Part shown: piece by piece, positions 1,146 to 9,492 of the stretch
Numbering within the stretch: position 1 is the stretch's first letter
Layout of the letters: each line of letters begins with the position of its first letter
NCBI GenBank assembly: GCA_012523305.1
Contig: JAAYIV010000147.1
Location: 1 to 39,879 of the forward strand
Source: Spirochaetales bacterium
Lineage (GTDB): Bacteria > Spirochaetota > Spirochaetia > Sphaerochaetales > Sphaerochaetaceae
Reading direction: 5' to 3'
DNA: 39,879 nucleotides
Program-made: the position numbers and the translations under genes
The notes under the pieces: model-generated
Told to the model about the DNA's origin: nothing
What the model saw: only the letters and a program-made list of their open reading frames with translations
The model's database searches: none

Positions 1146-3151
1146 AAGTCCATCTCCTTTTCAGATAATTGGGAGGATGCAATTTGTCGGTATACCGCGC
1201 AAGAGGCAAGCAGCTCTTTGTGCTTGCCGTCCCCTACAATTTTTCCATCTTCGAGAACCAAAATCCTGTCAGCATGTACAATAGTACTAATCCTTTGGGC
1301 AACGATGATGACGGTTGTCTGTGACAACGCTCGTTTGAGAGTTTTTCTCAATGCCGTATCGGTTCTGTAATCCAGTGCTGAAAAACTGTCATCAAAGATT
1401 AAAATAGGGCGTTTGGCTGCAATCGCCCTGGCGATAGCGACGCGTTGGCGCTGCCCTCCCGATACGTTGGTTCCTCCTTGTGAAATCGATGCCTGATATG
1501 TATTGGGCATCTGCCCTATGAACTCAGAAGCTTGGGCGATGGTAGCAGCACGCTGTATTAATTCCGGATCTTCTTCGATTCCGAATGCGATATTGGATGC
1601 CACGGTCCCCGAAAAAAGAATAGCTTTTTGCGGAACATAGCCGATTCGAGACCGTATGTGACGTGGTGAAAGAGTTTTTATGTCTTGGCCTTCAACCATC
1701 ACCGTCCCTTCGGTTGTATCATAGAACCGGACCAACAGGTTCAAAAGCGTTGATTTACCACTACCAGTACTTCCTATGATCGCCAATGTGGTTCCGGGTG
1801 TGGCTTTGAATGAAATGTCATCAAGAGCCTTGGAATCGGCTTCGGGGTAGCTGAACCCTACATGTTTGAACTCCACGACACCTTCTTGTGAGCCATCAGG
1901 AACAAATGTTGTCTCTGGATCAGTAATCGACAGAGGAGTTTCCAAGACCTCTTGAATTCTTGTTGCTGAAACCGAAGCTCTCGGTAACATGATGCTGAGC
2001 ATGGTTATCATCAGAAACGACATGAGAATTTGCATCCCGTACTGCATGAATGCCATCATATCCCCGACTTGCATCATTCCCGCATCGATCTGATGCGCTC
2101 CGTTGTACAAAATCAACACCGTAATGATGTTCATGACCAACATCATCAATGGCATCATCGCTGACATGGCCCTGTTAACGAACAACGATGTTTCGGTCAC
2201 CTCTTTATTAGCTTTGTCAAAACGTCTTTGCTCATGACGATATGTTCCAAAGGCACGGATTACCTGCAAACCGGAAAGACGTTCGCGCATGACGAGGTTT
2301 GTCTTATCAATCAAAGTCTGTAATTTTTTGAATTTCGGCATGACGAAAGCGAATAAGATACCGACAATCGTGAATATTGCAGCCACCCCCACGCCGATGG
2401 TCCATGCCAAGGTGGTCTGGACACTCAAGACTCTCAGAATGCCTCCTATGGCCATGATGGGAGCGAAAAACACGATCCGAAGAAGCATGACCGATGACAT
2501 CTGGATTTGCTGCACATCGTTCGTGCTACGGGTAATCAATGATGCGGTTGAAAATGTATCCATCTCAGGACGGGAGAATGAGAGGATCTTTGCAAACTGA
2601 TCAGCTCGCAATTCTTTACCGAGCTTAGCTGCAACTCTGGCTGCGATGAATGATACGAGTATGGATAACACTATGCTGGTGAATGCAAGAGCAAGCATTT
2701 TTAAACCACTGATCAAGATATAACGAAGACGCATCGTATCAACATCCACACCTAACGATGCATATTCTTTGGCAATGGAAGCAATCACTGCTTGAGTAGC
2801 GAGATCTTCATCCATAGTGGTTAACATTGCGAATGCGTTTACGGTGATTCGTTCTATTTCGGCTCTGTCGGAAAAGTCGTTAAGGTAATAGATCGAACCG
2901 GAACGATTATACGCATCGGAAAACCGAAGCCCCTGCTGTTCATCGAGCATAAAGATTATCTTTTGATACGTGGTCTCGCCTAGTTGTTCAAAAATAGCAT
3001 GTTCGATTCCTTGTTGTTGGATTCCCACGTTGACTATGTTGGACGTATAACTCGGTAAGGCAAGATCGGCGATCGCCTTGCCCATCAACAACAATATGAT
3101 CAGTAATACAAACATTTTAGAGTGAGACAAATAGTTTAGTAACAGCCGCAT
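1142..3151 (-). CDS. ABC exporter half-transporter, first subunit, degenerate ATPase site
   Basis: Exporter with fused membrane and ATP-binding domains, 669 residues. Walker A is GSTGSGKST (460-468), the signature is NVSGGQRQR (about 563-571) and Walker B is ILIFDDSFSALD. The catalytic Glu after Walker B is Asp (D588) and the H-loop His is Gln (VAQRIS). Such changes are known from the non-catalytic half of heterodimeric exporters, which fits the pairing with the overlapping downstream gene. Between the first two membrane spans there is an unusually long outside loop of roughly 110 residues (about 35-145), which makes the protein longer than the usual 580-600. The gene overlaps the upstream marR by 16 bases and the next exporter gene by 4, so all three should be one operon. 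Multidrug export is the family guess; the substrate is not known. Confidence 0.93.
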   Translation of the reverse strand: MRLLLNYLSHSKMFVLLIILLLMGKAIADLALPSYTSNIVNVGIQQQGIEHAIFEQLGETTYQKIIFMLDEQQGLRFSDAYNRSGSIYYLNDFSDRAEIERITVNAFAMLTTMDEDLATQAVIASIAKEYASLGVDVDTMRLRYILISGLKMLALAFTSIVLSILVSFIAARVAAKLGKELRADQFAKILSFSRPEMDTFSTASLITRSTNDVQQIQMSSVMLLRIVFFAPIMAIGGILRVLSVQTTLAWTIGVGVAAIFTIVGILFAFVMPKFKKLQTLIDKTNLVMRERLSGLQVIRAFGTYRHEQRRFDKANKEVTETSLFVNRAMSAMMPLMMLVMNIITVLILYNGAHQIDAGMMQVGDMMAFMQYGMQILMSFLMITMLSIMLPRASVSATRIQEVLETPLSITDPETTFVPDGSQEGVVEFKHVGFSYPEADSKALDDISFKATPGTTLAIIGSTGSGKSTLLNLLVRFYDTTEGTVMVEGQDIKTLSPRHIRSRIGYVPQKAILFSGTVASNIAFGIEEDPELIQRAATIAQASEFIGQMPNTYQASISQGGTNVSGGQRQRVAIARAIAAKRPILIFDDSFSALDYRTDTALRKTLKRALSQTTVIIVAQRISTIVHADRILVLEDGKIVGDGKHKELLASCAVYRQIASSQLSEKEMDL

Positions 3152-3603
3152 GATGACCCCTCTGATGCAATATGCTCCTGAAGTAAGTTGTTTCGCATCC
3201 TCGTAGCATAATCGAGCATGGTTTCAAGCTCATCTGCGGAAAATCCATCAAACAACTTATCATCAGCTGTCTTCATGTTATTACATGCTATCTTAAGCAA
3301 CGCTCTGCCTTTTTCTGTGATACTGATTTTGTTAAGACGTTTATCGTGTTCGTCTCGGGTGCGTTTGAGTATTCCCGTCGAAGCCATGCGAGAAACCATT
3401 ACGGTAACAGTGGATGGTTTGATAAAAAGCAATGAAGCCAATTGAGCTTGGCTCATGCTCGCTCGTGAAGCAATTAATGTTAGTAGGTGTAACTGCCCCG
3501 GATGAAGACCCACGTCATGCACGAGAGCATGGGCGTGGCTAAACCGTAGGCGCATCAATTGAGAAAAAACAGAAATCAATTCGGTTGATATGGATCGGTT
3601 CAT
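3136..3603 (-). CDS. MarR-family transcriptional regulator
   Basis: Winged-helix regulator of 155 residues, typical MarR length. The DNA-binding part is seen in MSQAQLASLLFIKPSTVTVMVSRM followed by the wing region (LKRTRDEHDKRLNKISITEKG), both characteristic of MarR. I chose ATG at 3603 because GGAG lies five bases upstream; a GTG at 3609 is in frame but abuts that site. It is the first gene of a marR-ABC-ABC operon and probably represses it until a toxic ligand binds. A palindrome lying between the -35 and -10 boxes of its own promoter is the likely operator. The C-terminus ends in SCGCY; nothing more can be said about that from sequence. Confidence 0.92.
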   Translation of the reverse strand: MNRSISTELISVFSQLMRLRFSHAHALVHDVGLHPGQLHLLTLIASRASMSQAQLASLLFIKPSTVTVMVSRMASTGILKRTRDEHDKRLNKISITEKGRALLKIACNNMKTADDKLFDGFSADELETMLDYATRMRNNLLQEHIASEGSSCGCY

Positions 3604-3630
3604 CGTCACTCCAAAAGATTAGACGGCTAA

Positions 3631-3659
3631 TTATTAATACTATTAGCCCATTTGGTCAA
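3631..3659 (-). promoter_or_regulatory. marR-ABC operon promoter with internal palindromic operator
   Basis: Minus-strand TTGACC (3654-3659), a 17-base spacer and TAATAA (3631-3636) form a good vegetative promoter. An inverted repeat GGCTAAT...ATTAGCC (3625-3648, seven-base arms, ten-base centre) covers the -10 box and most of the spacer. A MarR dimer bound there would exclude RNA polymerase, so simple autorepression is the expected mode. The expected transcript start is near 3624, about 20 bases before the ATG, leaving room for the GGAG ribosome site. Confidence 0.7.
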
Positions 3660-3672
3660 CAGGAAGATGCTG

Positions 3673-4848
3673 CTACCGATTTAAGACGGACAAACAGGCA
3701 AGGTACATTCTCGGTATGTGAAACGGTCCTTTAAACATATTGCCTTTCAATTGAGTCGATACGCTGCCGTCCCGATGAAGATAGCCAAACCATTCGCCGA
3801 AGTCCTTGTCAGCGAAATGTGTGTGTACATAACTATCCAGCTGATAAAAACGATCGAGATATCGAGCGGCTCCCGTAAGTGAGTAAGCTGTCAAATTGGC
3901 AATGATCGCTTCATTGTGCGGCCACCAGAATTTCATGTCATGCCAATAATCAAAAAGACTCTTTTTCAACGCATCTCTAACATAGAACAATCCGCCGTAT
4001 TCAGTGTCCCACCCGACATTCCACATCCAATCGAGCATATCGCATCCTAATCGAATCAAGTCTGCATCATTGTTCCTGTACCGTGCTTCGTTTAGGATGA
4101 ACCAAGCACCTTCAATGGCATGTCCGGGATTCAAGAGCCTTCCTTCAAAGTGGTCAGCTTGTAAAGATCCGTCCAATGCGCACTGTTCTAGCACCAGCTC
4201 CAACTCAGGGCGTACGAAGTAGGTTCTGATCTCTTTAATAAAGTCGTCGATGACAGTATTCAACCATTCTTCTTCAGGGCAGGCTTTGCGCAATTCCTGG
4301 GCAGTGTTTAATAATATCATCGGTAGCCCGAAGTGGCGTGAAGCTCTGGTTTCAGGCATGAATTTAGGAATGAGCAGTCTCACATCGTCTTTCCATTCAA
4401 GGACCTTTCTGAACAATGCCAAAGCTTTTTGTGCGTATGCTTTTTGACCTGATGCTCGGCTATAAGAGGCAAAGCCAATAACGGCAAATGTTTCACTGAA
4501 GATATAGCGGATACGTTTGACCACCGGTTTGCCATCGATCGTGACCCGGAAGAACATTCTTCCATCAGTATCAAAGCAGTGCTGTTCTAAGAACGACACG
4601 CATGAAGAAGCAACTTCAAGATACACCGGATTTCTTTTGAATTCATTGTAAGCAGTGGAAAATGTCCACAGAGAGCGTCCCTGGAACCAAACGGATTTAT
4701 CAGTTTCAAGAATACTTCCATCCCTATCGAGTCCAGTAAGCATCCCGGCATGGGTTCTGTCATACCCGTGGTCGATCCAGAACGTTAATATTGAATCATT
4801 AAGAGTAGTTTCATAACGTTGTTGTATGAGTTCTAGTTCATCCGGCAT
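3673..4848 (-). CDS. N-acylglucosamine 2-epimerase (AGE) family protein
   Basis: Sugar epimerase/isomerase of the (alpha/alpha)6-barrel AGE family, 391 residues, close to the usual 390-420. Family signatures seen are WFQGRSLW near the N-terminus, NPGHAIEGAWF in the middle, KFWWPHNEAIIANL and EWFGYLHRDGSV...GPFHIPR near the end. The closest remembered match is to GlcNAc 2-epimerase/renin-binding protein; mannose-type isomerases share the fold, so the substrate stays open. I start at ATG 4848 (MPDELELIQQ) because an upstream ATG at 4899 would read straight through a strong terminator hairpin. The GGGGG seven bases before this ATG belongs to the 3' arm of that hairpin. Alone between the psp operon terminator and the marR operon; no other amino-sugar genes adjoin. 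Confidence 0.9.
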   Translation of the reverse strand: MPDELELIQQRYETTLNDSILTFWIDHGYDRTHAGMLTGLDRDGSILETDKSVWFQGRSLWTFSTAYNEFKRNPVYLEVASSCVSFLEQHCFDTDGRMFFRVTIDGKPVVKRIRYIFSETFAVIGFASYSRASGQKAYAQKALALFRKVLEWKDDVRLLIPKFMPETRASRHFGLPMILLNTAQELRKACPEEEWLNTVIDDFIKEIRTYFVRPELELVLEQCALDGSLQADHFEGRLLNPGHAIEGAWFILNEARYRNNDADLIRLGCDMLDWMWNVGWDTEYGGLFYVRDALKKSLFDYWHDMKFWWPHNEAIIANLTAYSLTGAARYLDRFYQLDSYVHTHFADKDFGEWFGYLHRDGSVSTQLKGNMFKGPFHIPRMYLACLSVLNR

Positions 4849-4852
4849 ACAA

Positions 4853-4891
4853 AAGCCCCCTTCAGGTATACTGATTACCCGAAGGGGGCTT
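4853..4891 (-). terminator. Terminator of the pspA1 operon, overlapping the AGE ribosome site
   Basis: Arms AAGCCCCCTTC and GAAGGGGGCTT (4853-4863 and 4881-4891) pair perfectly over 11 bases, with a small inner GGTA/TACC pairing in the loop. On the minus strand the hairpin is followed by a short T-run (CTTTTG), so it should end the psp operon 16 bases after the DUF4097 stop. The same 3' arm supplies the purine-rich sequence before the AGE ATG at 4848. Confidence 0.8.
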
Positions 4892-4906
4892 GTCAACATT
4901 TACCCC

Positions 4907-5782
4907 TTAGTCTCTGAAAGAAATCGATCCGGAAGTAGTAGATATTTCAATGAAATTATTTCCATTGCCGATCACATACGTCGTCGAGCGTTTGTCAGTG
5001 CTTTCGATGCCCGCGTTTGAAAGCTTGGCAGAGACACTCCCGCTTACGGTCTTGGTAACCAGTTTTCCGTTGAAATCTTTAGGAATAACGAATTGGATCG
5101 ATCCGCTGACACTTTCAATATTCGCATTGTATGCATTCGACTTGGCCAGTTCGATTCGTCCTGATACACTTTCGGCCCGCAAGTATCCGTCAATGGCAAC
5201 ATCAATGTTTTGAACGGTAATGCCACCGCTTACAGTATCAATTTCCAAATCGTCAGCGCTGATCGACTGCCCGGAAATAGCTCCTGAAACAGATTTCAAA
5301 TATCCCTTGCGACTGATGTCCAGATCGTCAAATCGAAGTGCTCCTGAAACCGTCGATAGATCTGCCGATTGCAATTCCAACGGTGAATTGATATGCAAAG
5401 CTCCTGAAACGACTGACACGTCTAATGACCCGTTTTTCCACTCTTTCGGTAATGAAACATGCAACGCAGCCTGGAAATCCGTCAAGGGATTGATCGTCCA
5501 TTTTTTCTTTTTCTTCACTTCGATCGTGAGATTCCCACCCGATTCGCTGACAGAAAAGTCATATTGATTACGGCCGCTACCGGAAAGAATGACCTTGCCA
5601 TTATCTTGGCTATCGGTTTGAACTATGGTCACCGAAGGCGCGTCAGACTTGATGCGAACAGTACCTTGCCTATCGAGTGATTTGATCCTGCTCTCATAAT
5701 TATTATCAGAAATACCGTTTGCGAACACCGAAGATGCGGTTGCGTAAAACAATAATGCTATTAGAGAAATTATCAATTTCAT
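4907..5782 (-). CDS. DUF4097 (LiaG-like) secreted beta-repeat protein
   Basis: Exported protein of 291 residues. A signal peptide (MKLIISLIALLFYATASSVFA) is followed by a chain of short beta repeats, each centred on [ST]VSG: TVSGALRF, SVSGAISG, TVSGGITV, SVSGRIEL, SVSGSIQF, TVSGSVSA, TTSGSISF, about 19-20 residues apart. This is the DUF4097 pattern, seen in LiaG of the Firmicutes Lia envelope-stress operon. No lipobox cysteine. Start at ATG 5782, with GAGGA six bases before and ATGA overlap with the upstream pspC. It is the last gene of pspA-pspB-pspC-DUF4097, so it should act outside the membrane in the same stress response; its biochemical role is unknown. Three copies of an 11-base DNA motif 60 bases apart (from 5280, 5340, 5400) come from the protein repeats. 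Confidence 0.85.
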   Translation of the reverse strand: MKLIISLIALLFYATASSVFANGISDNNYESRIKSLDRQGTVRIKSDAPSVTIVQTDSQDNGKVILSGSGRNQYDFSVSESGGNLTIEVKKKKKWTINPLTDFQAALHVSLPKEWKNGSLDVSVVSGALHINSPLELQSADLSTVSGALRFDDLDISRKGYLKSVSGAISGQSISADDLEIDTVSGGITVQNIDVAIDGYLRAESVSGRIELAKSNAYNANIESVSGSIQFVIPKDFNGKLVTKTVSGSVSAKLSNAGIESTDKRSTTYVIGNGNNFIEISTTSGSISFRD

Positions 5783-6153
5783 TTTACATCCTCGTGAAAA
5801 CGCTGATCCCAATCACGTTCTTTGTCAAAAATTTGTTCTTCCATGCCTTCTACTTTTCTCTTCAATGACTCGAACGTCCTGCGCAGATCTTCTCGCGTGG
5901 TAGTGTTGTATCGATAATTCTCTTTGCTGCTTCTTCCATCATGAGAGTAACTAGTACCATATTCCGGTTCCAACGGGAGCAAGAGTCCCAATAATGCATA
6001 GATTGCCAGGCCGGGAAATACTCCGGTTACAATAATCGTAATTGCTACGATCAACCGCAGGGTGTCGACAGGTAAGTCCCTCCAATCGGCAATTCCCTGA
6101 CATACCCCGAATATTTGCCCCCTGCGTGATCTATACAGTCTCTTAGTTGCCAT
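5779..6153 (-). CDS. pspC: PspC domain protein with C-terminal coiled coil
   Basis: Inner-membrane phage-shock protein, 124 residues. The N-terminal PspC motif is intact (LYRSRRGQIFGVCQGIADWRDLPVDTLRLI), followed by a membrane span (IVAITIIVTGVFPGLAIYALLGLLLPL) and a charged, probably helical tail (about 85-124: REDLRRTFESLKRKVEGMEEQIFDKERDWDQ). In enterobacteria PspC and PspB sense membrane stress and draw PspA away from PspF. The gene follows pspB by 8 bases and overlaps the DUF4097 gene by 4. Start ATG 6153 has AGGTGG upstream. A second, different PspC lies at 8449-8721. Confidence 0.9.
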   Translation of the reverse strand: MATKRLYRSRRGQIFGVCQGIADWRDLPVDTLRLIVAITIIVTGVFPGLAIYALLGLLLPLEPEYGTSYSHDGRSSKENYRYNTTTREDLRRTFESLKRKVEGMEEQIFDKERDWDQRFHEDVK

Positions 6154-6161
6154 AACGCCAC

Positions 6162-6404
6162 CTAATCCTTTCCTTCAGTGTTATTATTTCTGTTGCGAAG
6201 TATGATTTCTAAATTCTCAATTCGCTTTTCCAGATCCATGATACCCTTGGCGAGTTCGCGGTCAAAGTCTTCGCTTTCCCGGCTGTGGCTATCTTTTAAT
6301 TTCCGTTTACGTTCTTTTGAACGTACCCCCATGCTTATAACCCATCCTGCAAACAGAAATGGAGCCACAATCGCAATTACCGCGACAAAATCATTCCCAC
6401 TCAT
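6162..6404 (-). CDS. pspB: PspB-like membrane protein
   Basis: Small protein of 80 residues, with one N-terminal membrane span (FVAVIAIVAPFLFAGWVISMGV), a basic stretch (RSKERKRKLKD) and a C-terminal coiled coil (about 45-70: FDRELAKGIMDLEKRIENLEIIL). Length, topology and place between pspA and pspC match PspB of the phage-shock operon, although sequence identity is not obvious by eye. Expected to sit in the inner membrane with PspC and to help transmit stress to PspA. AAGGAG lies about ten bases before the ATG. An unrelated small membrane protein in this slot cannot be excluded. Confidence 0.75.
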   Translation of the reverse strand: MSGNDFVAVIAIVAPFLFAGWVISMGVRSKERKRKLKDSHSRESEDFDRELAKGIMDLEKRIENLEIILRNRNNNTEGKD

Positions 6405-6425
6405 TATTCCGACACTCCTTGGTTA

Positions 6426-7091
6426 CTATTGCTTTGACCCTTTGGCCTCTTTGCGTAGTGCCTCCAGTTCAGCCTCAATCGCTTCCATTTCTTCCAAGTC
6501 TGCAAATCGAGATTCAACCGTGTCGGCTCCAGACTTACTCATACCGGCTTGGGCTTCCATCCGATCAACTTGTTGCTCCATCTTATCGAATCTGCTGAAA
6601 GCTTCATGATCGGTGGCTTTTCGCATTGTTTCGCTGGCAGCTTGCTGCTCGCGAATCCGTGTCGCACGTTCAACAATCGCCTGGTATTTGTTACGTAATG
6701 ATTGAAGCTTTTCTTCCAACTTGGAAATATCGTCCTTACTCTTCTTGATGATCTCTTCATAGCGAGCGATATCTTCTACCAGCTGGTCAAAATTGGTTGC
6801 AGCCTTGCGTTTTTCCAGTAATGCCTCCCTGGCTAAATCTTCACGATTTCTCTCCAAGGCGAGCTCGGCTCTTTTTTTCCAGCGCTCTAAAAGTGCTTCA
6901 ACTTCATTGCGATTCCGATCTAATTTGGTTTTAGTCGCAATCTTAGCCGCACAAGCAGATTTCAGCTCGATCAGGGTATCTTCCATCTCCTGCATCATGA
7001 GTTTGATCATCTTCTCAGGATCTTCAGCTTTATCGAGCAGAGCGTTGATGTTTGCATTTACAATGTCCATGAATCGAGAGAATACTCCCAT
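6426..7091 (-). CDS. pspA: Phage shock protein A (first copy)
   Basis: Peripheral membrane coiled-coil protein of the PspA/IM30/ESCRT-III superfamily, 221 residues. The N-terminal amphipathic helix (MGVFSRFMDIVNANINALLDKAEDPEKMIKLMMQEME) is the family hallmark; the rest is heptad-rich helix with a C-terminal acidic segment (EEMEAIEAELEALRKEA). PspA is known both to stabilise stressed membranes and to inhibit PspF. Start at ATG 7091, since GGAGG lies five bases upstream; an ATG at 7106 in frame lacks a ribosome site and lies just before it. First gene of the pspABC-DUF4097 operon, reading away from pspF, driven by the sigma-54 promoter at 7143-7159. Confidence 0.95.
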   Translation of the reverse strand: MGVFSRFMDIVNANINALLDKAEDPEKMIKLMMQEMEDTLIELKSACAAKIATKTKLDRNRNEVEALLERWKKRAELALERNREDLAREALLEKRKAATNFDQLVEDIARYEEIIKKSKDDISKLEEKLQSLRNKYQAIVERATRIREQQAASETMRKATDHEAFSRFDKMEQQVDRMEAQAGMSKSGADTVESRFADLEEMEAIEAELEALRKEAKGSKQ

Positions 7092-7142
7092 CGTTTTTTC
7101 CTCCATATCCGATGCTATGCATCGTGTTCTCTACTCGTATTC

Positions 7143-7159
7143 ATGCAAGTTCCATGCCA
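7143..7159 (-). promoter_or_regulatory. Sigma-54 promoter of the pspA1 operon
   Basis: Minus-strand TGGCATG-N4-TTGCAT matches the sigma-54 consensus TGGCACG-N4-TTGCW at all but one of the key positions, with the GG and GC doublets at the correct spacing. The transcript should start near 7133, about 40 bases before the pspA ATG. The neighbouring pspF gene encodes the matching enhancer-binding activator. Confidence 0.9.
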
Positions 7160-7223
7160 ACCTTATCGATCAGGACATCTATTTAAGAAGAACCTTCTAT
7201 TTGTCAGTTGAATACCAAGTTAC

Positions 7224-7239
7224 TCTGATGTCAATCAGA
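7224..7239. promoter_or_regulatory. Palindrome between pspA and pspF, candidate activator site
   Basis: TCTGAT-GTCA-ATCAGA, six-base perfect arms, centred about 98 bases upstream of the predicted sigma-54 transcript start. That is a usual distance for an enhancer site, but no equal copy is seen before the second pspA operon, so the assignment to PspF is weak. Confidence 0.35.
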
Positions 7240-7288
7240 CTTTATCATAAATATGTATCGAATTGAAGATATTTCATAGTATGCGAAT

Positions 7289-7323
7289 ATGGTAAAAATG
7301 ACCCATCGATGGTAAAATCCACC
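7289..7323. promoter_or_regulatory. Pair of TGGT-N7-ACC sites abutting the pspF start, candidate PspF enhancer sites
   Basis: Two copies of TGGT-N7-ACC begin at 7290 and 7310, 20 bases (two helical turns) apart: TGGTAAAAATGACC and TGGTAAAATCCACC. The same motif and spacing recur at 9589-9620 upstream of the second sigma-54 promoter. The second copy ends two bases before the pspF ATG and also contains the likely pspF -10 box (TAAAAT, 7313-7318), so a protein bound here would shut off pspF. This matches the known autoregulation of PspF in enterobacteria. Confidence 0.5.
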
Positions 7324-7324
7324 T

Positions 7325-8353
7325 ATGAGCGAAGAACAAAAAGCAGTAATGCAAGCTCCTTTAGGAGAATCAGAAGCATTTCTTGATTTTCAGCAGGCTT
7401 TGAGCAGAGCGGCAAAAGTGGATCGAAGTGTCTTGGTAGTCGGAGAACGTGGAAGCGGGAAGGAGATTGCCGCAACACGGCTTCATTATCTTTCCAAACG
7501 TTGGCAACACAACCTTATCACTGTCAATTGCGCAGCTTTGCCCCCCTCTTTGATCGAAACAGAATTGTTCGGTTATGAAGCTGGAGCGTTTACCGGTGCG
7601 ATGAAAACCAGAAAAGGCCGGTTTGAAGAAGCTGAAGGCGGAACTCTTTTTCTCGACGAGATCGGTTTGATTCCCCTTGAAGTTCAGGAAAAGATCCTCA
7701 GGGTGGTCGAGTATGGTACGTTTGAACGTGTGGGATCTTCAAAAACCCATGAAGTTAATGTCAGGATCGTAGGGGCCACCAACACAGATTTGCCAGCGTT
7801 GTGCGCGGAAGGGAAATTCAAGGAAGATCTTTTAGATCGACTTTCTTTTGAAGTACTTTTTTTACCGCCGTTACGTAAACGAGGAGAAGATATTCTTTTA
7901 CTGGCAAATTATTTTGCTGCAAAGATGGCATTGGAATGCCAACTCAGTGAAATGCCAGTGCTTTCACAGGCCGTCCAGGATCAATTGATGGCGTATTATT
8001 GGCCTGGAAATGTCCGGGAGTTGAAAAATGTTATTGAACGGGCTGTCTACAGGTCTCCGACTTCAGAAATCACTTCGATAATACTTGATCCGTTTGACAA
8101 TCCTTTTGATAAAGAAGACCAAGATGTTTATGAACATGAACAAACAGAAAAAATAACTAGATCAGGGGTACTTGAGACGGCTCCTTTGGAAAGCTTTGAT
8201 GAAGTCCGACAGCAAGTCGATATTCTATTTATAAAAAGAGCTCTTGAATTTCATGAAGGCAATCAAAAACTCGCGGCAAACGCATTGCGCCTTACCTATG
8301 ATCAATTCAGAGGGTTGTACAGGAAGTATAAATCACAATTAGCCGAAGAGTAA
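7325..8353 (+). CDS. pspF: PspF, sigma-54 activator of the phage-shock response
   Basis: AAA+ enhancer-binding protein of 342 residues, with no N-terminal receiver or sensor domain, as in PspF. It opens sigma-54 promoter complexes by ATP hydrolysis. Seen: GESEAF start of the AAA domain (14-19), Walker A GERGSGKE (40-47), the sigma-54 contact loop GAFTGA (87-92), Walker B GGTLFLDE (105-112), WPGNVRELKN near 237, and a C-terminal Fis-type helix-turn-helix (GNQKLAANALRLTYDQFRGLYRKY). The Trp in LSKRWQHN corresponds to the PspF tryptophan that contacts PspA. Flanked by two sigma-54 promoters, each feeding a pspA copy. No Shine-Dalgarno; TAAAAT ends six bases before the ATG, suggesting a leaderless message. 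An ATG eight codons in (7349) is an alternative. Confidence 0.95.
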   Translation: MSEEQKAVMQAPLGESEAFLDFQQALSRAAKVDRSVLVVGERGSGKEIAATRLHYLSKRWQHNLITVNCAALPPSLIETELFGYEAGAFTGAMKTRKGRFEEAEGGTLFLDEIGLIPLEVQEKILRVVEYGTFERVGSSKTHEVNVRIVGATNTDLPALCAEGKFKEDLLDRLSFEVLFLPPLRKRGEDILLLANYFAAKMALECQLSEMPVLSQAVQDQLMAYYWPGNVRELKNVIERAVYRSPTSEITSIILDPFDNPFDKEDQDVYEHEQTEKITRSGVLETAPLESFDEVRQQVDILFIKRALEFHEGNQKLAANALRLTYDQFRGLYRKYKSQLAEE

Positions 8354-8358
8354 AAAGA

Positions 8359-8387
8359 GAGGACGTCCGTTTTCAGCGAACGCCCTC
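8359..8387 (-). terminator. Terminator after the second pspA-pspC operon
   Basis: As minus-strand RNA, GAGGGCGTTCG pairs with CGGACGTCCTC over 11 base pairs (two G-U wobbles) around a seven-base loop, followed by TCTTTTA. On the plus strand the two wobbles become A-C mismatches and no T-run follows, so it mainly serves the minus strand and lies just past the pspF stop. A second small hairpin (GTGGAC/GTCCAC, 8402-8416) sits between it and the pspC stop. Confidence 0.65.
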
Positions 8388-8448
8388 AAAAGAGACTGCA
8401 CGTGGACAACGTCCACGACCAACACTTCGGTCAAGAATGCCCAGCCCC

Positions 8449-8721
8449 TCAATCCTCCGGTTTCATGATGATCGCAGCCAATAGGTATGCTACCCCTGCC
8501 GGGTAAAATCCTGTTGCGATCAATGCTATGATCATTGCTACCCTAAGCGGCCAGGCTGGAATTCCAAGCCATTCGGCAAAACCTTGGCACACTCCTAACA
8601 CAATGCCCCTTCTTGAACGGCGCAACACTCTGCAGGGCCGTTCACATTCCCATTCACGACGGTATCCTTTATATTCTGAGCGCATATACTCCTTATATCC
8701 GCAATCTCCACTGCAACTCAT
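8449..8721 (-). CDS. Second PspC domain protein with cysteine-rich N-terminus
   Basis: Small membrane protein of 90 residues. The PspC motif (CRVLRRSRRGIVLGVCQGFAEWLGIPAWPLRVAMI) and one membrane span (about 63-86) are clear. Unlike the first PspC it has no coiled-coil tail but carries a 30-residue N-terminal extension with two CxxxC pairs (C3/C7 and C26/C30), absent from the first copy. These could bind a metal or form disulphides; that is inference. It follows the second pspA by 19 bases and shares its sigma-54 promoter. The start at 8721 has AGAGGT eleven bases upstream; ATG 8685 is an alternative that would lose the first Cys pair. Confidence 0.88.
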   Translation of the reverse strand: MSCSGDCGYKEYMRSEYKGYRREWECERPCRVLRRSRRGIVLGVCQGFAEWLGIPAWPLRVAMIIALIATGFYPAGVAYLLAAIIMKPED

Positions 8722-8740
8722 AACCTTTTCTTACCTCTAA

Positions 8741-9412
8741 TCAATTAGTCTGTTTCTTTGTATGCTTCGCCTTCAGTTTGGCGAGTTCGGCCTCAATGGC
8801 CTCGTTGTGTTCCATGTCGACAAACTCTTGTTCTTTGCTTTTTGCTCCGGTGAACCCTGCCATTTCAACATCCGCTTCCATGCGTTCGATCTTTTCTTCA
8901 AGTTCATTGAATTTCCTGCAAGCTGCAGAACAGTCGATGTTTTTCAGAATCTCAACGACCTTTTGTTTTTCTTTTGCATGATACGCCCGTTCAATCAGCA
9001 TCCTCTGCTTGTCCCTGATTTCCTGACGTTTTGTTTCAAGCTTGGAAATCTGGTCTTGCATCGAACTGATGATTCCGTCCATCTGGGCAAGTTCCCCTTC
9101 GAGATTTTCGACTCTCCTTGTTACCCGGGTCTTCTCTATCAATGCTTCTCTGGCTAGATCGTCGCGACCTTTTTCAACAGCGAGCGAAGCACGATTATTC
9201 CAGCGTTCCATAGCTGCTTTTGCTTGCTTCAACTCTTCTTCGATCACGGTACGATTTGCCATCCTCTCAGCTGTTGCTGTTTTGGCATCAACTAGTGTTT
9301 CATCAAGTTCGGAAAGCATAAGGCGAATCATTTTCTCAGGGTCTTCGAGTTTATCCAATTTTGCATTTACATTGGCATTGATGATGTTCTTAAATCGTCT
9401 AAAAGTCTTCAT
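8741..9412 (-). CDS. Phage shock protein A (second copy)
   Basis: Second PspA/IM30 family protein, 223 residues. The N-terminal amphipathic helix (MKTFRRFKNIINANVNAKLDKLEDPEKMIRLMLSELDETLVDAKT) parallels the first copy closely, and the body is long coiled coil. It differs around residue 160, where KNIDCSAACRKF puts a CxxxC into the hinge, and in the tail. Start ATG 9412 has AGGAG seven bases upstream. Transcribed from its own sigma-54 promoter (9477-9492) with the second pspC. Two PspA copies under one PspF suggest divided labour, for instance one as PspF inhibitor and one as membrane effector, but sequence does not tell which. Confidence 0.94.
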   Translation of the reverse strand: MKTFRRFKNIINANVNAKLDKLEDPEKMIRLMLSELDETLVDAKTATAERMANRTVIEEELKQAKAAMERWNNRASLAVEKGRDDLAREALIEKTRVTRRVENLEGELAQMDGIISSMQDQISKLETKRQEIRDKQRMLIERAYHAKEKQKVVEILKNIDCSAACRKFNELEEKIERMEADVEMAGFTGAKSKEQEFVDMEHNEAIEAELAKLKAKHTKKQTN

Positions 9413-9476: not shown

Positions 9477-9492
9477 TGCAATAGTCGTGCCA
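9477..9492 (-). promoter_or_regulatory. Sigma-54 promoter of the second pspA operon
   Basis: Minus-strand TGGCACG-ACTA-TTGCA is an exact match to the sigma-54 consensus. The transcript should start near 9466, about 54 bases before the pspA ATG. It faces the same way as the first psp promoter and lies upstream of the second pspA-pspC pair. Confidence 0.93.

Follow-up and report, generated by a model that had tools for sequence, protein, structure and literature searches.

A predicted periplasmic DUF4097 toastrack protein encoded behind PspC in PspF-type psp loci of spirochaetes

It has long been asked which signal PspB and PspC of the psp response perceive, and on which side of the membrane they do so. 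A conserved gene product that is encoded alongside PspC and looks exported presents a concrete candidate for the outside input. A gene of this kind was found in a 39,879-nucleotide stretch of contig JAAYIV010000147.1 (hereafter the window) from a member of the Sphaerochaetaceae (assembly GCA_012523305.1), and the question raised by the locus is what a LiaG-like protein with a DUF4097 domain does at the end of a psp unit.

The gene at 4907-5782 on the minus strand encodes 291 amino acids and is the final gene of a pspA-pspB-pspC-DUF4097 unit. Profile searches kept its product in the family to which the original prediction had assigned it: PF13349 matched with an E-value of 1.8e-24 and 86.9 bits (cut-off 22.9), and the NCBIfam model of LiaG (NF049997) matched at 1.4e-28 over nearly its full length, residues 3-288 lying on positions 9-285 of 286, with a score (99.9 bits) far under the curated cut-off of 285 for a LiaG equivalog. 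DUF4097, DUF2154 and DUF2807 have been merged under the name Toastrack and described as a recurrent PSP partner (Ravi et al. 2024, PMC11237479); we use the name in this sense. A structure model of the protein alone (m0b0a376c66ec) reached a pLDDT of 91.9 and displayed the predicted toastrack fold, its structural matches being 3lyc (Z 17.7), 4opw (Z 16.7, 201 residues) and 4qrk (Z 13.7, 160 residues), of which the latter two are example structures of the fold according to Ravi et al. (PMC11237479). The TM-scores given by Foldseek were low, 0.26-0.49 by query length (16 matches, E <= 0.001), and a PDB search with the sequence gave 3lyc as single match (E 0.0067). By profile and fold taken together, the protein is firmly a member of DUF4097. 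The model was also aligned to 7muc_AM, a chain from the map of the Legionella Dot/Icm secretion system, with Z 12.6 over 221 residues and an rmsd of 4.0.

The genes ahead of the toastrack on the minus strand are pspC1 (5779-6153; PF04024 8.1e-13; TIGR02978 1.4e-19 over residues 4-120, under its cut-off), which extends C-terminally beyond the PspC domain, a pspB-like gene (6162-6404) and pspA1 (6426-7106, likely start ATG at 7091; PF04012 2.2e-38), the product of which scored 7e-68 and 228.6 bits with TIGR02977, slightly below the cut-off of 242.95. The regulatory gene pspF (7325-8353, plus strand) adjoins pspA1 in the opposite orientation, as pspF of E. coli is divergent from its psp operon. 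With 447.1 bits (3.9e-134), its product exceeds the cut-off of 443.55 of the PspF model TIGR02974. In a survey of the phylum this model matched in 197 of 198 genomes, and only G000 exceeded the cut-off, there being no other family member in the draw; the survey tells little, because the model catches sigma-54 activators generally. An enterobacterial pattern had been claimed for PspF, PspB and PspC; of these, PspB is divergent in sequence and a weak match, below both curated cut-offs (PF06667 0.01, 16.3 against 25.6 bits; TIGR02976 3.5e-4, 20.8 against 51.7 bits). A counterpart of the pspB-like gene with 64 and 58% identity occupies the equivalent position in L003 and L004. Likewise, the statement that all four genes form one operon with overlapping stop and start codons needs amendment: pspB, pspC and the DUF4097 gene are co-directional, but pspF is not among them and the fourth gene is pspA; the pspC stop and the toastrack start overlap by four bases (ATGA, 5779-5782), but the pspA-pspB and pspB-pspC gaps measure 21 and 8 bases. 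What stands on profiles and coordinates is a psp unit of proteobacterial style that adjoins pspF and has a DUF4097 gene behind pspC.

Beyond pspF, a second pair follows on the minus strand, consisting of pspA2 (8741-9412; PF04012 1.2e-42) and a short pspC2 that ends just past the PspC domain (8449-8721; PF04024 2e-12). Such a second pair is also seen in many of the loci L074-L131, and in many relatives the second PspC is short as well.

For the transcription of the unit, the candidate start is a sigma-54 (-24/-12) promoter-like site, TGGCATGGAACTTGCA, upstream of pspA1 at 7144-7159 on the minus strand with one mismatch to the generally known consensus that was used in the scans; a further site, TGGCACGACTATTGCA, lies upstream of pspA2 (9477-9492, minus strand) and has no mismatch. 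Three such sites were found in the whole window against 1.09 expected, and their number alone is weak evidence because 12 of 100 shuffles reach three. The comparison of the relatives is strong at the level of sequence: among 60 named loci, 58 have a site with at most two mismatches within 220 bases upstream of the pspA that scores best, 172 of 4800 background stretches taken from these loci have one, and 23 of 36 other pspA copies in the named relatives have a similar site. The source genome contains rpoN, and both the promoter, as far as the consensus can tell, and the sigma-54 gene of a PspF-type operon are therefore represented. At the other end, the toastrack stop codon is followed by an intrinsic-terminator-like hairpin with a 16-pair stem and a T-rich stretch (4853-4891, minus strand; -32.4 kcal/mol, z -4.76, equalled by none of 200 shuffles), which was absent from the listing of the initial promoter and terminator scan. 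Hairpins of this type stand behind the toastrack in 13 of 31 relatives (31 of the 35 toastrack-positive loci described below), the other 18 having none, as compared with 20 of 930 random stretches. Promoter site, spacing and terminator fit a co-transcription of pspA, pspB, pspC and toastrack. Another terminator-like hairpin lies after pspC2 (8359-8387, minus strand), the two sites in the scan total being below the shuffle mean of 5.6. A gene resembling N-acylglucosamine 2-epimerases (3673-4899, minus strand; 345 bits, cut-off 600) is flanked by the toastrack on one side and by a MarR gene on the other. It probably lies outside the unit, because the strong hairpin directly follows the toastrack stop; the first ATG of its reading frame is upstream of the hairpin, and its true start is therefore probably a later one, MPDEL, as judged by eye.

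Whether the toastrack belongs to the psp genes or stands behind them by chance was addressed through named relatives, which were found with a PspA alignment and comprise Sphaerochaeta, other Sphaerochaetaceae and other Spirochaetales; the toastrack protein as single query on the named genomes detected no relative, whereas the PspA alignment did. A locus was considered testable if it held a complete pspA-pspB-pspC with at least 500 bases beyond, as 48 of the 60 did. A Pfam-supported DUF4097 gene was located downstream of pspABC on the same strand in 35 of these 48, a tally made by hand and then rechecked; at 30 of them the two genes pspC and toastrack overlap or are at most five bases apart. 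The positives include L127, where the toastrack lies 384 bases past pspC with an uncertain start, and L114, where the second and third copies were scored since the first failed Pfam; L131 with a weak match (0.015) was excluded. Twelve loci were set aside, with pspB or pspC missing or cut by a contig end (L081, L087, L088, L096, L109, L129), pspB not found (L094, L112, L121, L123) or pspC not found (L132, L133). The four that have pspC with at least 500 bases beyond and lack pspB carry no toastrack behind pspC either, and including them gives 35 of 52. At least two pairs, L094/L132 and L109/L115, probably derive from the same genome, judging by contig-name stems.

In a class-wide draw of 148 genomes, DUF4097 was found in 56, PspC in 54 and both in 30, and in 12 of these 30 a DUF4097 gene follows PspC in the same direction at a distance of up to 1 kb. 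The draw overlaps the named set, L075, L090, L106 and L120 having been judged the same contigs as G006, G010, G015 and G001. That 44 of the 56 DUF4097 genomes show no such placement would suit an unrelated DUF4097 gene that merely happens to follow pspC, but the 35 loci sharing the arrangement diverge widely in sequence, and this gene is the only DUF4097 match in the whole source genome (a 2.56 Mb draft in 187 contigs). A chance neighbour is hardly credible, and is refuted unless the loci go back to one recent transfer.

The association is not strict. Thirteen of the 48 loci, initially judged with a custom six-sequence profile, have no toastrack behind pspABC, nor does G301 (L136), so that the gene is dispensable. 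In the whole genomes of these 13 and of the four loci lacking pspB, a Pfam search finds DUF4097 in 7 of 17, apparently never behind pspC by position and strand, with contigs and accessions only partially matched. Compared with the two nearest relatives, the toastrack displays 41 and 39% identity, as against 74 and 69% for PspA and 79 and 64% for PspC; together with the PspB values given above, this makes it, on sequence, the least conserved gene of the unit. In Bullifex porci (L114, 6418-8746) three toastrack-like genes follow pspC in a row, two of them Pfam-supported and one weaker, and L125 (6374-8646) has three in a row, all Pfam-supported.

Residues 1-21 of the source toastrack (5720-5782, minus strand) resemble a signal peptide ending V-F-A, according to hydropathy and with the cleavage site placed by eye. 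The hydrophobic segment covers residues 3-21 and is the only one; the model reveals a helix at 2-21, followed by pLDDT values below 50 at residues 22-24. The protein looks exported, as originally predicted, and the N-terminus looks cleavable, which would yield a soluble periplasmic protein; where LiaG has its N-terminal membrane segment, hydropathy and charge indicate a segment here too, though one that resembles a cleavable signal more than an anchor. Of the 41 toastrack-like proteins in alignment A3, 37 were then surveyed for export by hydropathy and charge, with the relatives' start codons picked by script; the first copy of L114, two further copies of L125, and L131 were excluded. In every one of the 37, a strongly hydrophobic segment precedes the domain, in 36 close to the N-terminus (in L127 at 142-154, the start being probably wrong). 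A net positive charge stands before this segment in 36, the exception being L107 with a doubtful start, and a second hydrophobic segment is absent from 36, the exception being the second copy of L114. Since the segment is universal here and the preceding charge nearly so, the toastrack domain should face the periplasm in the spirochaete set. Many relatives have an N-terminus that looks like an uncleaved anchor, and in a few a lipid anchor possibly takes its place.

This placement would contradict a published prediction. Ravi et al. (2024, PMC11237479) consider the domain intracellular, arguing from the topology of fusions and a lack of extracytoplasmic regions, a view repeated for Listeria (PMC12791056), and on that basis the protein could be a cytoplasmic scaffold beneath the membrane. 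For the spirochaete proteins, we regard this as improbable in view of the N-terminal segments and charges; moreover, the domain of LiaG has been called extracellular (Popp et al. 2022, PMC9239133), and in the solved Bacteroidetes relatives the alignment begins at residues 30-36, which would fit a removed export signal. The spirochaete toastracks would then be a counterexample to the intracellular prediction. That an exported partner of this kind is common, as originally suggested, agrees with the signals within this spirochaete group, but as a general statement it meets the conflicting views of Ravi et al. and Popp et al.

With respect to known systems, Ravi et al. (2024, PMC11237479) name toastracks in psp operons of Alphaproteobacteria, and in section 17 they already report toastrack genes in PspF-type operons "in a few spirochaetes". 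As far as that account goes, PspF, PspA, PspB, PspC and toastrack occur together there as in our locus; it mentions PspB/PspC fusions, whereas the source locus has separate pspB and pspC genes and an export-like signal on the toastrack. The proposed bridge between two envelope-stress designs is therefore a real arrangement, but one already in print. A search of the literature, without most subscription journals, found no more detailed account of spirochaete psp-toastrack operons; new here are the frequency, the promoter and terminator anatomy, the export reading against the published prediction, and a PspA-free PspC-toastrack remnant described below. In the description of B. subtilis liaIH-liaGFSR (PMC9239133), LiaG is membrane-anchored with an extracellular DUF4097 domain and, like the source toastrack, encoded with a PspA homologue; the LiaG model matches the source protein over nearly its full length. 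Its setting is LiaRS, whereas ours is sigma-54/PspF, with a score far below the LiaG cut-off; furthermore, the source toastrack follows pspC, and the B. subtilis PspC homologue is encoded in an operon separate from that of liaG (PMC9239133). No LiaF, LiaS or LiaR was found at 3136-9412, where nine proteins were scanned with Pfam and eight with NCBIfam. Operons yvlABCD of B. subtilis (PMC9239133) and lmo2487-2484 of Listeria (PMC12791056) encode a DUF4097 protein with a PspC protein, as here, but a PspA or PspF gene is named in neither description. The E. coli genes pspF and pspABCDE (PMC3068692) share PspF, sigma-54 control and the order pspA-pspB-pspC with the source locus, which adds a toastrack, of which the description of the E. 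coli genes makes no mention, and the nearby second pspA-pspC pair.

As to the partner of the toastrack, three genomes of genus g124 in the same family have eroded psp loci. G301 (L136) retains pspABC. In G284 (L134), PspC and an anchored toastrack are encoded with ATGA overlap, and no PspB or PspF lies within the surrounding 8 kb; in G329 (L135), the toastrack stands alone and its start is lipobox-like. Profile and protein queries found PspA in neither the G284 nor the G329 genome, and PspC in that of G284 and not in that of G329; rpoN is present in both. An apparent stepwise loss of the locus emerges within the genus. PspC emerges as the most probable partner, because the PspC-toastrack pair outlives PspA in G284 and because PspC-toastrack fusions are published from PspA-free settings (Ravi et al. 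2024, PMC11237479). PspC of G284 lacks, as seen by eye, the C-terminal stretch of PspC1; in E. coli, a leucine zipper in that region is required for contact with PspA, and the PspC C-terminus has been proposed to face the periplasm (PMC3068692). The same source gives evidence for a possible change of topology, with the C-terminal part contacting PspA, so that a periplasmic face of PspC is not assured; a literature search on dual topology of PspC in Yersinia gave no match. PspC cannot be the only use of a toastrack, because that of G329 stands where neither PspC nor PspA was found. Nor is the picture otherwise simple, considering the 13 toastrack-less loci and the B. subtilis two-hybrid data, in which LiaG bound LiaH weakly and YvlB bound PspA and LiaH strongly (PMC9239133). 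A counterpoint to PspC as partner is also the short pspC2, which accompanies pspA2 despite the missing C-terminal stretch.

We consider the chances about even that the toastrack is an exported accessory of the PspB/PspC sensor and binds PspC on the periplasmic side. Transcription of the unit, from the site at 7144-7159 to the terminator at 4853-4891, would be carried out by sigma-54 RNA polymerase with PspF from the divergent gene, presumably upon envelope stress as in E. coli, and the start of the toastrack would be coupled to the stop of pspC. The N-terminal signal would place the toastrack beta-helix in the periplasm, where it could bind PspC on the outward surface of the inner membrane and, as scaffold or sensor, gate or stabilise the signal from PspBC to PspA; PspA and PspF themselves, both being cytoplasmic, would hardly be its partners. 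More tentatively, PspC and a periplasmic toastrack might constitute a separable envelope-sensing module, in which the toastrack reads the outward side of PspC, the tie to PspA is optional, and PspA-free running occurs as in G284.

The rather less likely alternative is a stress effector: the toastrack would reinforce the envelope as a structural protein of the periplasm, and PspF and sigma-54 would do no more than induce it along with the other genes. The last position in the unit, a faster variation than that of its neighbours, the multiplied copies of L125 and L114 and the lone gene of G329 all agree with an effector, but the overlap or tight spacing with pspC in 30 of 35 loci, the pair kept in G284 and the published fusions (PMC11237479) speak for the accessory of PspBC. 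A link of toastrack retention to a weak cell wall was also considered and dropped: transpeptidase PF00905 had no match in G006, G284, G301 and G329 and one in each of the other 8 of 12 genomes, and psp-linked toastracks are both present and absent among the genomes lacking it. As a further observation, the toastracks of G284 and G329 adjoin a gene that by eye resembles rsmI, and a similar gene lies near the psp genes of the source.
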